In this document: one piece after another, positions 1-21,146 of the stretch
Numbering within the stretch: position 1 is the stretch's first letter
Layout of the letters: each line of letters opens with the position of its first letter
Source: a virus
Reading direction: 5' to 3' (one strand)
DNA length: 21,612 nt
Virus record (IMG/VR): IMGVR_UViG_3300024346_000593
Location: 1 to 21,612 of that record
The notes under the pieces: generated by a model
What the model saw: only the letters and a program-made list of their open reading frames with translations
Told to the model about the DNA's origin: nothing
Databases searched by the model: none
Translations under genes and position numbers: made by a program

Positions 1-958
1 TTTCTGCTTTAACAATAAGTTTACTTTTGTATTGTCTAAAACTTATGCCTTTAAAACCTGTAGTGTTATTAGATTTTAAAGATTCCTGCAACATTTGATT
101 TATTTGAATATCGTTATATTTATCTAGTATTGGTAATCTCTTATACTCACCAACGTGTCTTTCTGTATAAGGTTCTCCATTCAACACAAGTTTCTTCATA
201 CACATGTGACGATATTCTACAGCCAGTGCTAACGCGAGTTCTTTACCATATTTGACAACAGAAAAATGTTTAGAAATAACTTTCCCATTTAATCTGTAAT
301 TTGCTGTAAATATATTGTTATTAAAAGATACACCTTTATAACCTGTTAGATTATTCTTATTGAGTGTCTTAGTGTTCTTAGAATTGCACTCTTGAGTAAC
401 TTTTCTAAGATTATTTATGTTGTTATTTAAAGAATCACCGTCTATGTGATCTATAACAAATCCAATAGGGTCTTCGTTGTTTAGTAGGAACCAAACAACT
501 CTGTGAACTTTTCTATTTGAGTTATTAACTTTAACCACATACCTACCTTGAGATAAATGACCAGCAATATCCCCTGCACTTCTTTTTAATGATCCTCTTT
601 GGTTGTTACCTACCTTATAGCGTAAGCAAGTAGGACTCGTAGTATCATAATAATATTTTGAGCGAAGAAGTTCAGAGTCCACTTCTAAAGACTTGGCTTC
701 AATAGTTGTTTGATGAACATTTCCTACAGATTTATATAACTTAATCAAATCAACTTCTAATTTTTGTGCCTCTTTTTGCGTCATATTTTCCTTTACAACG
801 CAGTAGTACCACAGATTATTATTTACAATTTCTTTCCAGAATTTTGATCTGTTTCTAGTTGACTTCATTCTTTGACCACAACCTGAGCCGACATTAAACA
901 CTTCATTAGTTCCGACTACTCTGTGTAAGTACACATAATATTTATCTTCTTTACTCAT
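1..958 (-). CDS. Homing-type endonuclease, GIY-YIG plus HNH plus AP2-like (C-terminus beyond window)
   Basis: Partial gene: an ATG at 958 opens a frame with no stop to the left edge (at least 317 residues). A GAGGG motif lies about eight bases before the ATG. Residues 7-30 resemble a GIY-YIG core (YYVYLH, then FNVGSG) with the conserved arginine at 30 and a Glu in an ExxLI motif at 68. Residues 100-114 (TSPTCLRYK) and 128-190 form the common phage HNH domain, with HR at 152-153, DHIDGD at 170-175 and NNLRKVT at 182-188. An AP2-like DNA-binding segment covers about 202-250 (TGYKGVSF), and a second one starts at about 298 (TGFKGISF) and runs off the edge. The protein is a paralogue of the one encoded at 6050-6877. 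It probably cuts DNA to spread its own gene, and lies where the tape measure gene would normally follow the tail chaperones. Family assignment is confident; activity is inferred. Confidence 0.85.
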   Translation of the reverse strand, partial: MSKEDKYYVYLHRVVGTNEVFNVGSGCGQRMKSTRNRSKFWKEIVNNNLWYYCVVKENMTQKEAQKLEVDLIKLYKSVGNVHQTTIEAKSLEVDSELLRSKYYYDTTSPTCLRYKVGNNQRGSLKRSAGDIAGHLSQGRYVVKVNNSNRKVHRVVWFLLNNEDPIGFVIDHIDGDSLNNNINNLRKVTQECNSKNTKTLNKNNLTGYKGVSFNNNIFTANYRLNGKVISKHFSVVKYGKELALALAVEYRHMCMKKLVLNGEPYTERHVGEYKRLPILDKYNDIQINQMLQESLKSNNTTGFKGISFRQYKSKLIVKAE

Positions 959-1115: not shown

Positions 1116-1487
1116 TTACTTTTTCTTTTGTTTATCTTCTTTTTCTTGTTGTTGTTTTCTAGCAAAACTCATGGCAATGTTGTCAAACATTTTAATTATG
1201 TCTATTTCCCATTGTTCAGGTTCTATTCCTTGAAGATTAAAATAACACCATATTTCTTGATATGTAATCGGGGATGCACCGAAACCAGAAGCTCTGGTGT
1301 TATTTAAAGAAAGAAACCACTGCCAACACTCTCGCATCGAATCTGGGAGTTCAATTTGAGAGTCTAGTTGTTCTGGTCTCTTTTTAGTTAGTCTTTCAAC
1401 TGCTTCCAAGTGCTCACGAAGAGTTCTACCATCAGGTTGAATTTCGGATAATCCGAATTCCTGTTCAGCATACTCTCTTGCTTGCAC
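1116..1487 (-). CDS. Tail assembly chaperone, second (gpT-like) frame
   Basis: This 123-residue frame begins with a GTG at 1487, but the frame is open upstream to a TGA at 1511-1509, so it overlaps the end of the preceding chaperone gene. The central part (PDSMRECWQWFLSLNNTRASG, then GFGASPITYQEIWCYFNL) resembles the second half of phage tail assembly chaperones, with a Lys/Gln-rich charged tail. In lambda-like phages this part is made only as a fusion to the first frame by programmed frameshifting. It lies in the +1 frame relative to the upstream gene, and a UUU-C slip at 1506-1503 would join them. An AGAGG motif five bases before the GTG is an alternative explanation. The fused or free protein would hold the tape measure while the tail tube polymerises. 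Confidence 0.7.
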   Translation of the reverse strand: MQAREYAEQEFGLSEIQPDGRTLREHLEAVERLTKKRPEQLDSQIELPDSMRECWQWFLSLNNTRASGFGASPITYQEIWCYFNLQGIEPEQWEIDIIKMFDNIAMSFARKQQQEKEDKQKKK

Positions 1488-2073: not shown

Positions 2074-2970
2074 GTGATACGGAGTGGAATAAATTTCATA
2101 TTGAATTTTGAACATAAACCCTCAGGCACTTACATTTATTTGCACAAAAAGGCAACATGTGGTACTGTGTTCTATATTGGTAAGGGACAATCGGACAGAT
2201 ATATTTCAACAAACAGAACAGACTATTGGAAAAGAGTTGCGACAAAACATGGGGTGATTGTTGAAATAGTACATGAGGATTTACAAGAGTGGTACGCTAT
2301 GGAGATTGAATGCCTGCTTATCTCGTATTATGGTAGAAAAGACATAAAACAAGGTCTCCTAGTTAACCTCACAGATGGTGGTGATGGCGCTAAAGGTGCC
2401 ATAGACACTGAAATATGTACAATAACTAATTACAAGACAAATGAAGAATTTAAAGGGACAAGGCAAGATGTTAAAAATAAAATAGGATGTTCATATGCTT
2501 CTTTGTACAGAACATCTAAAGGCTCTGCTATTTTTAGAAAAGGATGGTATATCCCGTCGGAAGTTACTTCCGAAGAATTAGCTTTACGACTTAATGCTGA
2601 AAATGGTTCTTATTATGCTTGCACTGATACATCCATAAAGGAACTCATAAATATTGACACCCTCGAAACATTTAAAGGTACTCGAAAAGAGTTTTACAAG
2701 TATACTAACATTGACGCAAGTGTCTTATTTAATGGGATAAATAAAGTAAGAAAAAGATGGACATTAATGGAAACTTATAAAACCATTAACACAGCTAAGT
2801 TGAAACATCAGAACCACGACTGTAACCAGTATGTATTGTTGAATATTACTACTGGTGAAATATTTAAAGGAAGAAGAGATGAATTCAAAAACAAATTTCA
2901 AATTAATATACAAGGTTTATTTGGTAATCAAAGAGCTAAAGTTTGCTTAGGGTGGTGTATTGTAGAGTAA
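2074..2970 (+). CDS. GIY-YIG homing endonuclease with three C-terminal repeats
   Basis: The only convincing plus-strand gene (298 residues, GTG start, AAGGAGGT six bases upstream). Residues 20-105 form a GIY-YIG nuclease domain: YIYLHK at 20-25, VFYIGKG at 32-38, Arg42 and a probable catalytic Glu79 (ECLLI). The rest is three diverged copies of a DNA-binding-type module, each built as a beta pair ending in FKGxR followed by a short helical stretch and an aromatic end (about 113-161, 188-236 and 252-298; FKG at 126, 200 and 264). This looks like the NUMOD1/helix-turn-helix type of specificity repeat found in homing endonucleases. It has its own promoter and terminator and lies opposite to the structural operon, as expected for a mobile free-standing nuclease. 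Target sequence unknown. Confidence 0.85.
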   Translation: MIRSGINFILNFEHKPSGTYIYLHKKATCGTVFYIGKGQSDRYISTNRTDYWKRVATKHGVIVEIVHEDLQEWYAMEIECLLISYYGRKDIKQGLLVNLTDGGDGAKGAIDTEICTITNYKTNEEFKGTRQDVKNKIGCSYASLYRTSKGSAIFRKGWYIPSEVTSEELALRLNAENGSYYACTDTSIKELINIDTLETFKGTRKEFYKYTNIDASVLFNGINKVRKRWTLMETYKTINTAKLKHQNHDCNQYVLLNITTGEIFKGRRDEFKNKFQINIQGLFGNQRAKVCLGWCIVE

Positions 2971-6049: not shown

Positions 6050-6877
6050 TTATGTTCCGTGCCGGTCAGTATAACCTGCGCCTTGTTCGTTTAATAGTTT
6101 GATTTGCTCTTTGCGCCATTCACAGGCTAAACGGAAGGCTTCTTGTTCACCGTATTTAGAAACTGAAAATGAACGAGCTATCCTACAAACATCAGAACTT
6201 ATTGAAGCCCTATATGTTTTATTATTAGATGCATACGATACTCCAGTTACACTGGTAACACTTCGTTTATCTACTTTAGTATTTCTACGATTGGTAGTGT
6301 GGTCTACTTGTCTTAAATTAGAAGGTAAATTATTGTAATGATTACCGTCTATATGGTCAATTACTTTATCTTCTGAAATACCACCATTAGTTAATAAGTA
6401 GACAATGCGATGCACTCTGTAATTTTTACCTTTTAAGCAGACCTGCCAACCAGAGGTTCCTTTATTACCAGCAACATCACCTTGTTTATGAATGATGGAA
6501 TATTTAATATCTCCATAATCATGAGCATATACGTTTTGTTTATATCGTAAACAAGTTTTACTTGTAACATCAACATAGTACATGTTATTAAATGTATCAA
6601 AATCTAAGGTTTTGACTTTTGATGACGATGTAGATAAATTAACTATTTTAGGACCATATTCTAGAATTAGTTTTTCTTCTAATTCCAACGCTTCATCTTT
6701 AGTTAAATTATCTTTTAGAATTTCATGAATAAATCCACAAGCATCCTCTACTACTTTATTCCAAGTTTTCAATTTACGAATTGTACATTTAGCTCTAATC
6801 AAAGTACCTTGGCCTATATAGAAAATTTCTCCGTTATCTTTTCTATAATGTGCATATACACAGTATTTATTTTTCAT
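6050..6877 (-). CDS. Homing-type endonuclease, GIY-YIG plus HNH plus AP2-like
   Basis: 275 residues. A GIY-YIG domain covers about 5-85: CVYAH at 6-10, IFYIGQG at 18-24, Arg28, and Glu67 or Glu68 in LEEKLI. A linker with TSKTCLRYK at 105-113 leads into the phage HNH domain: HR at 156-157, DHIDG at 174-178, NNLPSNLR at 182-189. An AP2-like segment follows (SVTGVSY, about 209-255). The protein ends (GYTDRHGT) where the paralogue at 1-958 continues into a second AP2-like repeat. ATG start with AAGGAG six bases upstream. It sits between the major capsid and connector genes, has its own promoter (6962-6991), and leaves the connector's ribosome binding site intact. It most likely nicks or cuts the same site in phages lacking it. 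Confidence 0.85.
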   Translation of the reverse strand: MKNKYCVYAHYRKDNGEIFYIGQGTLIRAKCTIRKLKTWNKVVEDACGFIHEILKDNLTKDEALELEEKLILEYGPKIVNLSTSSSKVKTLDFDTFNNMYYVDVTSKTCLRYKQNVYAHDYGDIKYSIIHKQGDVAGNKGTSGWQVCLKGKNYRVHRIVYLLTNGGISEDKVIDHIDGNHYNNLPSNLRQVDHTTNRRNTKVDKRSVTSVTGVSYASNNKTYRASISSDVCRIARSFSVSKYGEQEAFRLACEWRKEQIKLLNEQGAGYTDRHGT

Positions 6878-7040: not shown

Positions 7041-8069
7041 TTAGTTAGAAGTTGTACCTTTTACAACTAACTGAGGGCGACGAATAACGTGAGTAACGTT
7101 GAATTCACCGTCAATATCAATTCCGTTCCCCTTTGGATCACGATATGTCCATAGGTAACCACGTTCTGCGATAGTATTAGTAAAATCTAATTTGTTAGCA
7201 GGACCAAAATAAGACATAAAGGTGTCAGTAGTACCAGTAGGAACGAACACAACTTCACCAGCAGGGATTAAACGCTGACCAGCTAGAACAGTACGAACTT
7301 CAATGAAGCGAATACCTGCGTAGGTAAACTCACGGTATAGACCGTTGTTACCACCAGCACGATTACGCTGAATCATCTGACCTTCAGTAGCACTGAAGTA
7401 TTGATAAGCAGTTTGAATCTTAGCATGAGCGATTAGTTTAGCGAACCACTCAGGGCTGCAATAAGCGATAATACCAGTGATAACATCACCTGTATTTGCG
7501 TTATCTTGCATGTGAGCAATAACTTCTTCAACCTTAGCTACAACATCAGTACCAGCAGTGCCAAGAACGAAGTCAACTGACTTTTGGGTAATACCAAAAT
7601 CTGTTGCTAAGTTACCAACGATAGTACCATTTGGAGCGTACAGGTTCAAGGTAGTTAATGTACTAAAACGTCCAACTTCCATAGTGATATCCATATTGCG
7701 ACGGATACGTTCCATTTTACGAGCTAGAACAGCAGCTTCAGTTTCAGCCATATCGGTAGAGCCATAAGCGCGTTTACCTTGGATATCTTCAGGCTTGATT
7801 GCGTCAACAACGGGCCAGTGACCGATAGGGTAAGAACGAATCTTACGGTTGTCATCCTTGTTAGCTTGTGGTTTAGCACCACGGAATTGGTCACCGATTA
7901 GACCAAGCGTTTGAGATTGTTCTTCAAAGGTAACAGTATTGGTGCTTAGGAATTCTTCAGAGAATAAACCTGAATCATTTAGTAAAGTCCATGAGTTTGG
8001 AATTAGTTGTAGTTCTTGTGTTACGTCTACTACTTCAAAAGCATTAGTATAAGAGCGAATAGTTGCCAT
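7041..8069 (-). CDS. Major capsid protein, lambda gpE family
   Basis: 342 residues, almost the same length as lambda gpE (341). The start (MATIRSYTNAFEVVDVTQEL), LFSEEFLSTNTVTFEEQSQT, the central ERIRRNMDITMEVGRF and the end FNVTHVIRRPQLVVKG follow the family pattern of phage major capsid protein E. It forms the icosahedral shell after proteolytic maturation of the prohead. Its order after protease, scaffold and gpD-like decoration protein is the lambda order. The translation start region (AAGGAAAATATAAAATG) is identical to that of the decoration gene, consistent with strong, matched synthesis. A hairpin follows the gene. Confidence 0.92.
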   Translation of the reverse strand: MATIRSYTNAFEVVDVTQELQLIPNSWTLLNDSGLFSEEFLSTNTVTFEEQSQTLGLIGDQFRGAKPQANKDDNRKIRSYPIGHWPVVDAIKPEDIQGKRAYGSTDMAETEAAVLARKMERIRRNMDITMEVGRFSTLTTLNLYAPNGTIVGNLATDFGITQKSVDFVLGTAGTDVVAKVEEVIAHMQDNANTGDVITGIIAYCSPEWFAKLIAHAKIQTAYQYFSATEGQMIQRNRAGGNNGLYREFTYAGIRFIEVRTVLAGQRLIPAGEVVFVPTGTTDTFMSYFGPANKLDFTNTIAERGYLWTYRDPKGNGIDIDGEFNVTHVIRRPQLVVKGTTSN

Positions 8070-8100: not shown

Positions 8101-8775
8101 TTAAGCAGCTTCAAGAACTTGAATACCGAGAGCAGCTAAGGATGCATAGATAGCTTCTTTTTCAGCGTCTGTATTGTGAGTAGCATCTAGAACTAGAGCA
8201 GTCTTGCTAATAGTAGCTGGACCACGAACAATTACTGCCATTTTAGTGTCAGTAGTAGCTGGAATAGCTTTATCTTCTAGAACAAGAGCAGCAGCAACTT
8301 GTGAACCATCAGTAGCGGTTTGAACGCAGATTTTGTACTTGTAAGTACCTAGAACAGTAACCTTAAAGCCATCGCCAATAGCGAAGTCGGTGGCACCGTC
8401 AGCGATAGTGAAAGCTAAACCACCCTTAGAGAATGCTACAGCTACAGTACCAGTACCAACAGCAACACCATCAGGGTCAACTACTAGGAATGTACCAGCG
8501 TTTGCAGAAGCTGCAGTGAATACTACAGAATATACACCTACTTTAGCTGGAGCAGTTACAGTTACAGCACCGAAAGTACCATTACCTGTGTTACCTGCGT
8601 TAGCAGCAGCAGAAGCAGTGCCAGAAGTGATTGTTTTACCTAGAACAGTACCTACTGCGTATGTAGAAGCTGCGTCATTTACGATAACAGCGTCGCGGCA
8701 GAAGTTTAGTTCTTTCTTGTATTCGTGCTTAACTAGATTAGAAAGACGATATGTATCAGTTGCAATTACGGTCAT
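8101..8775 (-). CDS. Head decoration protein, lambda gpD-like with inserted beta domain
   Basis: 224 residues, about twice lambda gpD (110). Residues 1-60 (YRLSNLVKHEYKKELNF, AVIVNDAASTYAVGTVLG) and 143-224 (YKYKICVQTATDGSQVAAAL, MAVIVRGPATISKTAL) match the two halves of gpD-like decoration proteins. Between them, about 62-142, is an extra alternating-strand segment (GTFGAVTV, GTFLVVDPDGVAVGTGTV, FTIADGATDFAIGDGFKVTV) seen in many prophage gpD homologues. Trimers on the capsid surface would stabilise the expanded shell, with the insert probably exposed. It lies directly upstream of the capsid gene with the same ribosome binding site block. Confidence 0.85.
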   Translation of the reverse strand: MTVIATDTYRLSNLVKHEYKKELNFCRDAVIVNDAASTYAVGTVLGKTITSGTASAAANAGNTGNGTFGAVTVTAPAKVGVYSVVFTAASANAGTFLVVDPDGVAVGTGTVAVAFSKGGLAFTIADGATDFAIGDGFKVTVLGTYKYKICVQTATDGSQVAAALVLEDKAIPATTDTKMAVIVRGPATISKTALVLDATHNTDAEKEAIYASLAALGIQVLEAA

Positions 8776-19720: not shown

Positions 19721-20383
19721 TTATTCCTTTACATATCCGTGATATTTTTGTTCAAGTTCCATTCTGGAATAGATAGCATCCCATAGATAATCATAAAACT
19801 CTACTATTTCTACTTTAGTTTCTGGCTCTATAAACTTTACTCTCCACCGTTTAGTAGTTTTATGCCATGAAACTCCAGTTTTACCAGACTTATTCTTAGA
19901 AGACATTCTTTGGTTATAGGCTTGTGTTGAATCATCAGCCCATCTACAATTTTCTTTACAGTATCCAATATTATTATCTATCCTGTCAATTGAATAATCT
20001 TTAATATAACTTGAACCCATGTCATCAAAAAATCCAGCAAAAGATAACCATTTATCACAAACAGAAATACCTCTTTCACCATAATTTTTGTACATAGCAT
20101 TTTTAGTATCCATGCAACGAGATTTCATAGCAAACCAAGATTGATATATTTGAGTCCCATAATGTTTATGTCTTTCATGAATTGTTCCATCCTTTGTGCG
20201 AATAATACAACCACAAGATACAACTCTGCTACTTTTAAGTTGGCTTTTTCTAGCAAAAACAAAGTTTCCACATTCACATTGACATTTATACCTTAAGTAT
20301 GGATATCCACCTTCTGTTATAAAATTACTCTCGTCCTCAACAACTGTGAGTTTGCCAAATTTATGCCCAATTTGATATTTCAA
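19721..20383 (-). CDS. HNH homing endonuclease with zinc ribbon and AP2-like domain
   Basis: 220 residues, TTG start at 20383 with AGGGGA six bases upstream. N-terminal zinc ribbon: Cys34, Cys36 and Cys38 (CQCECG), with Cys57 and Cys59 (SCGC). HNH core of the phage type: HYGTQIYQSWFAMKSRC at 74-90, NYGERGISVC at 100-109, SIDRIDNN at 131-138, CRWADDSTQAYNQR at 146-159. AP2-like DNA-binding segment at about 166-215 (GKTGVSWHKTTKRWRVKF). Unlike the other three nucleases here it has no GIY-YIG domain. It is inserted just before the small terminase gene and behind a 14-bp inverted repeat. A free-standing homing enzyme, target unknown. Confidence 0.9.
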   Translation of the reverse strand: MKYQIGHKFGKLTVVEDESNFITEGGYPYLRYKCQCECGNFVFARKSQLKSSRVVSCGCIIRTKDGTIHERHKHYGTQIYQSWFAMKSRCMDTKNAMYKNYGERGISVCDKWLSFAGFFDDMGSSYIKDYSIDRIDNNIGYCKENCRWADDSTQAYNQRMSSKNKSGKTGVSWHKTTKRWRVKFIEPETKVEIVEFYDYLWDAIYSRMELEQKYHGYVKE

Positions 20384-20894: not shown

Positions 20895-20970
20895 TGGTGC
20901 TTTGTGAATGTTTCGAACACTCTACCTACTGCTTACAAGGCAGTTGCTCTACCGATTGAGCTAACAAAGC
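20895..20970 (-). tRNA. tRNA-Thr (anticodon UGU), CCA encoded
   Basis: A full 76-base cloverleaf on the minus strand: acceptor GCTTTGT/ACAAAGC, D-stem GCTC/GAGC with GG in the loop, anticodon stem ACTGC/GCAGT with loop CTTGTAA (anticodon TGT), T-arm GAGTG-TTCGAAA-CATTC, discriminator A and CCA. All stems pair (one G-T). It probably supplements host tRNA for ACA codons, common in AT-rich phage genes. Confidence 0.95.
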
Positions 20971-21071: not shown

Positions 21072-21146
21072 TGGTACGATGTAACAGAATTGAACTGTTA
21101 TTGACTGGTTGAAAACCAGTTGTCCTAACCATTAGACGAACACCGT
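21072..21146 (-). tRNA. tRNA-Glu (anticodon UUC), CCA encoded
   Basis: A 75-base cloverleaf: acceptor ACGGTGT/ACATCGT (one G-T pair), D-arm starting GTCTAATGGTTAGGAC as in bacterial tRNA-Glu, anticodon stem ACTGG/CCAGT with loop TTTTCAA (anticodon TTC), T-arm AACAG-TTCAATT-CTGTT, then A and CCA. Likely helps translate GAA, a frequent codon in AT-rich phages. Confidence 0.95.

Follow-up and report, generated by a model that had tools for sequence, protein, structure and literature searches.

A phage gene that joins GIY-YIG, HNH and AP2 domains probably encodes a free-standing homing endonuclease

A four-part reading frame beside a phage tail gene

The DNA analysed is IMG/VR record IMGVR_UViG_3300024346_000593, a window of 21,612 bases that derives from a P26059A-like freshwater phage. 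At one end of the window lies a reading frame, here called HEG1, that begins with ATG and runs open into the contig edge, by which it is truncated; its downstream neighbour in this phage lies off the contig, and an exact-DNA scan found no other contigs extending past that edge. A tail assembly chaperone gene (Phage_TAC_18, E 5e-18) is located just upstream, and the hairpin between the two genes is assigned by a consensus match only. The features discussed below are as follows.

2..958, minus strand: HEG1, a GIY-YIG/HNH/AP2 fusion open reading frame of 319 codons
707..946, minus strand: GIY-YIG domain, residues 5-84
893..895, minus strand: codon 22, AAT (Asn), replacing the YIG tyrosine
869-871, minus strand: GIY-YIG catalytic R30
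755-757, minus strand: GIY-YIG catalytic E68
374..679, minus strand: HNH module, residues 94-195
446-451, minus strand: HNH D170-H171
383-385, minus strand: HNH N192
179..364, minus strand: first AP2 domain, residues about 199-260
2..70, minus strand: start of a second AP2-like domain, residues 297-319, an internal repeat cut by the contig edge
1094..1111, minus strand: terminator-like hairpin
1116..1487, minus strand: tail assembly chaperone gene
6050..6877, minus strand: second GIY-YIG/HNH/AP2 fusion, 275 aa, with an intact FYIG motif
20895-20970 and 21072-21146, minus strand: tRNA-Thr and tRNA-Glu genes, also found with Rfam

The HEG1 frame, read from 958 to 2, has four recognisable parts: a GIY-YIG fold, an I-HmuI-like HNH module, an AP2 domain and the beginning of another AP2 domain. 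A first-pass annotation had placed a GIY-YIG-like N-terminus, a full HNH domain and AP2-like segments in this one frame, and this arrangement was confirmed by profile searches and by an AlphaFold2 model (mean pLDDT 83, with 22 family sequences included in the input).

The HNH domain is indeed complete. Pfam HNH_3 matches residues 149-193 with E 5.6e-11 and 42.3 bits (curated cut-off 24.8), and residues 94-193 of the model share the fold of I-HmuI (PDB 1u3e; Z 7.7 over 85 residues). When a profile of the whole family was compared with PDB sequences, I-HmuI was matched clearly (E 3e-10) and GIY-YIG enzymes weakly. Residues D170, H171 and N192, which we take to be the metal ligands and the general base, presumably correspond to D74, H75 and N96 of I-HmuI.

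Like HNH-AP2 homing endonucleases, HEG1 carries a C-terminal AP2 domain. Pfam AP2 matches residues 205-251 with E 2e-7 and 31.6 bits, slightly under the curated cut-off of 33.3 bits that the fusion at 6050..6877 exceeds, and known AP2 structures match this domain with Z 5-7. The annotation had proposed at least two AP2-like segments, of which the second stands only as a domain start: the C-terminal LKSNNTTGFKGISF repeats the first AP2 start LNKNNLTGYKGVSF with a score that was reached by 0 of 5000 shuffles, and this segment comprises the last 22 residues, for which pLDDT is below 50. A proposal that SUSP2-type HNH proteins share the second AP2 domain was rejected, as the tblastn match crossed a stop codon.

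Profile searches with the N-terminus gave mixed results. The Pfam GIY-YIG model scored below threshold, and the 84 residues searched alone matched Tox-URI2, a family of the URI/GIY-YIG fold, at E 3.8e-4, just over the cut-off. A profile built from the N-termini of the related fusions described below recovers stand-alone phage GIY-YIG endonucleases (for example, that of Rhizobium phage L139 at E 2.3e-22), and, among PDB sequences, a restriction enzyme of the GIY-YIG type (E 2e-4). The predicted structure has the GIY-YIG fold: residues 6-84 superpose on the catalytic domain of I-TevI (Z 9.0, 77 residues, rmsd 2.1 A) and residues 5-85 on the GIY-YIG domain of UvrC (Z 7.6). The top structural match (Z 9.8) is PD-T4-3/CMoRE, a bacterial restriction enzyme that acts against modified phage DNA (PMC12923530). 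Both the fold and the catalytic Arg and Glu of the superfamily are present in HEG1. The YIG tyrosine is absent; its position is occupied by Asn22, and the motif reads FNVGSG where FYIGxG is usual, as had been pointed out.

The fusion recurs in relatives of phage P26059A

Fourteen distinct GIY-YIG/HNH/AP2 fusions were collected, comprising the two in the window, ORF15 and ORF58 of Curvibacter phage P26059A (KY981271; PMC5964084) and others from IMG/VR contigs. The second fusion in the window immediately follows the major capsid gene (7041-8069); it lies 6 kb from HEG1, to which it is 38% identical. Leaving out the L186 fusion, every fusion whose neighbours were examined belongs to a relative of P26059A. 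The fusion is thus a family trait that recurs in related phages and not a one-off.

Scanning viral contigs with the single HEG1 protein gave no matches, whereas an alignment of family members did find relatives. Among 50,697 phage records searched by tblastn, which more divergent fusions could escape, 80% query coverage was reached by P26059A alone. The 80 loci listed for bacterial and archaeal genomes contained just the HNH-AP2 half, plasmids yielded the HNH half and not the full fusion, and no NCBIfam model matches the fusion. Both halves exist as stand-alone proteins, and the stand-alone HNH-AP2 relatives start at about residue 95-105.

ORF15 and ORF58 have the GIY-YIG and HNH architecture in common with HEG1. 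ORF15 immediately follows the capsid gene, and its alignment with HEG1 spans residues 1-268 (37.5%). Both ORFs keep the YIG tyrosine but lack the C-terminal extension of HEG1 that carries the second AP2 start. In the report on P26059A, ORFs 15 and 58 appear among both the HNH_3 and the GIY-YIG proteins, and the fusion goes unremarked (Moon et al. 2018, PMC5964084). Therefore, this architecture is already in print, though not discussed.

Two further genes are recorded here as separate observations. P26059A ORF56 (L136, 14825-15736, minus strand) encodes a protein with two HNH_3 stretches, the first of which looks degenerate at the DH motif. A GIY-YIG endonuclease of Synechococcus phage S-SRM01 (L144, 701-1459), found also in phage B23, is labelled 'translation initiation factor 2', which is probably a misannotation.

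Both nuclease domains are conserved, and HEG1 has lost one tyrosine

GIY-YIG residues R30 and E68 and HNH residues D170, H171 and N192 are invariant among 11 aligned full-length fusions and one 5'-truncated copy, even though the full-length relatives are only about 35% identical to HEG1. In three close pairs, dN/dS is about 0.05-0.18 for the GIY-YIG domain and 0.06-0.15 for the HNH domain; these per-domain values are rough, with some synonymous distances large. Comparisons of HEG1 with its relatives are saturated, and the selection estimate rests on close pairs that do not include it. In these pairs both domains are under purifying selection. Because the catalytic residues are invariant and both domains are constrained, the family does not appear to be losing either nuclease, and an earlier suggestion that one domain now serves only for DNA binding is unsupported as a general reading. 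The HNH Asp site does vary beyond the aligned set, since the more distant ORF58 carries Asn at this position (NHID).

The YIG tyrosine is retained in 13 of the 14 fusions, with Asn found solely in HEG1. In ANKLE1, the equivalent Tyr-to-Phe change makes the enzyme 3500-fold slower (PMC10287932), and none of the CMoRE active-site mutants, those at Y31 among them, retained activity in vitro (PMC12923530). Against these examples, R.Hpy188I has Lys at the YIG tyrosine position and is still classed in the GIY-YIG superfamily (PMC2630997), and another GIY-YIG protein found here (L041) likewise reads FNVG. As R.Hpy188I illustrates, Asn22 says more about activity than about whether the protein belongs to the superfamily. 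By extrapolation from Phe and Ala mutants of other GIY-YIG enzymes, the GIY-YIG activity of HEG1 is probably weak, although not certainly absent, and its HNH domain looks intact. The first-pass proposal that the GIY-YIG domain is losing activity beside an intact HNH domain therefore seems apt for HEG1 but does not extend to the family, in which R30 and E68 are invariant and dN/dS is low.

Origin of the fusion and occupancy of its insertion sites

In their GIY-YIG domains, the fusions cluster together, apart from stand-alone GIY-YIG proteins (support 97/96). The tree of the HNH half does not by itself group the fusions and is poorly resolved, and the AU test does not reject a topology that unites their HNH-AP2 halves (p-AU 0.30). 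Together with the stand-alone relatives of each half, these results suggest one fusion event followed by spread. HEG1 is best read as an HNH-AP2 homing nickase that acquired a GIY-YIG nuclease.

The fusions are positioned between conserved virion genes and outside introns, at sites that hold a fusion in some relatives and none in others. Eight distinct phages, among them P26059A and the phage of the window, carry a fusion at the post-capsid site, which is empty in the related phage G002. The gap between the chaperone and tape measure genes is occupied in G002, in G009 (just upstream of the tape measure gene) and, as far as the contig goes, in the window; it is empty in G003, G004, G005 and P26059A. 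A third gap holds a fusion in G002 and is empty in the other related phages. These comparisons are between divergent phages, at about 50% protein identity, and not between near-isogenic pairs. The third-gap copy of G002 clusters with the copies that G003 and G005 carry after the capsid gene, and one subfamily has thus used different sites. Genomes also carry several fusion copies. Free-standing homing genes, T4 seg and mob among them, are distributed in this way (PMC2988022). A group I intron origin was considered and rejected, as the Rfam search detected only two tRNAs and no intron RNA families overlapping the fusions.

Other genes of the window were noted in passing. One (2074-2970, plus strand) is of GIY-YIG homing type, encodes a repetitive C-terminal region and runs opposite to the tail genes. 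The homologue in contig L177 (4504-6048, about 514 aa), which it matches three times along the length, occupies the same gap and is co-directional; the shared gap and opposite orientation suggest independent insertion. A further HNH endonuclease (19721-20383, minus strand; phrog_374, E 1e-58) adjoins the terminase genes. The 224-aa head decoration protein (8101-8775, minus strand) aligns twice with the shorter decoration protein of relatives (roughly 131 aa), which would fit a tandem duplication.

Comparison with known endonucleases

HNH-AP2 homing endonucleases (PMC10448857) have HNH_3 followed by AP2, as in HEG1, but no GIY-YIG domain. HEG1 would work most like such an enzyme with an extra GIY-YIG nuclease. 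With I-TevI and the NUMOD3-bearing GIY-YIG homing endonucleases of phages, HEG1 has in common the GIY-YIG fold and the catalytic Arg and Glu, and free-standing phage relatives adjoin structural genes, as the fusions do. However, enzymes of the I-TevI/NUMOD3 type have one nuclease domain, with a NUMOD-type tail where HEG1 has HNH-AP2.

T4 SegF (224 aa) is, like HEG1, a free-standing phage enzyme of the GIY-YIG family, and a figure legend calls it a hybrid endonuclease (PMC2988022). It was rejected as an example of the same architecture, as neither Pfam nor reading of the SegF sequence revealed an HNH motif; SegF gives no meaningful alignment to HEG1. The nearest dual-nuclease design to HEG1 is MegaTev (PMC5751168), in which a GIY-YIG nuclease is likewise N-terminal to a second independent endonuclease and two cuts are made. 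MegaTev is an engineered fusion of the I-TevI nuclease with a meganuclease, and the partner is LAGLIDADG rather than HNH-AP2.

Proposed function and alternative explanations

We hypothesize that HEG1 is a free-standing homing endonuclease, probably a selfish DNA-cutting enzyme, in which the HNH domain nicks DNA and, in most family members, the GIY-YIG domain most likely contributes a further cut. We assign this reading a probability of about two in three. The AP2 domain or domains would bind an extended target, probably in a neighbouring conserved virion gene, and the I-HmuI-type HNH domain would nick co-infecting phage genomes that lack the gene. Recombination repair of the nicked genome would then copy the gene in. 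A second cut by GIY-YIG, on the second strand or at a second site, is most likely because both active sites are kept in most members. In the HEG1 copy, the change of Tyr22 to Asn probably leaves mainly HNH activity.

A bolder version of this proposal, which we advance only tentatively, is that the fusions are natural single-chain dual nucleases. The first-pass annotation had likewise considered that two different nicks might be made. The HNH nick and a GIY-YIG cut in the other strand or at a second site would together make a recombinogenic break, and copies like HEG1 would drift back to a single nuclease. Its converse, that GIY-YIG has ceased to act as a nuclease throughout the family and serves in DNA binding or positioning while HNH does all the cutting, seems unlikely to us. 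HEG1 does lack the YIG tyrosine, and stand-alone HNH-AP2 relatives manage without GIY-YIG, yet a binding role would not readily account for R30 and E68 staying invariant at such divergence, for the tyrosine in all other fusions, or for a GIY-YIG dN/dS as low as that of HNH.

Two further explanations are each given still less credence. Decay after fixation is known for homing genes, and the loss of Tyr22 could mark HEG1 as a decaying pseudogene heading for loss, with both domains dispensable; however, the frame runs without a stop through at least 319 codons, the HNH residues are intact, and HEG1 has an extra AP2 start that is absent from aligned relatives. It is equally improbable that the fusion is a resident phage nuclease that is not mobile and acts, for example, in host DNA degradation or against co-infecting phages. 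Host DNA cleavage has been proposed for the GIY-YIG genes of P26059A (PMC5964084), and the closest structural match of the GIY-YIG domain is the restriction enzyme PD-T4-3/CMoRE. Residence is at odds with presence and absence at several sites, with multiple copies per genome and with the spread of one subfamily across different sites, and the combination of AP2 and HNH_3 is typical of homing endonucleases (PMC10448857).

The GIY-YIG/HNH/AP2 architecture is unusual and conserved, but it is present in the already annotated genome of P26059A and does not constitute a new system. A natural HNH enzyme with a second conserved nuclease would parallel engineered dual nucleases, MegaTev among them. HEG1, with its tyrosine lost, and the intact paralogue form a ready comparison within one phage. 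How an HNH nick promotes recombination has been described as an outstanding question (PMC2988022), to which a second nuclease, conserved and joined to the HNH domain in one protein, would offer one directly testable answer.
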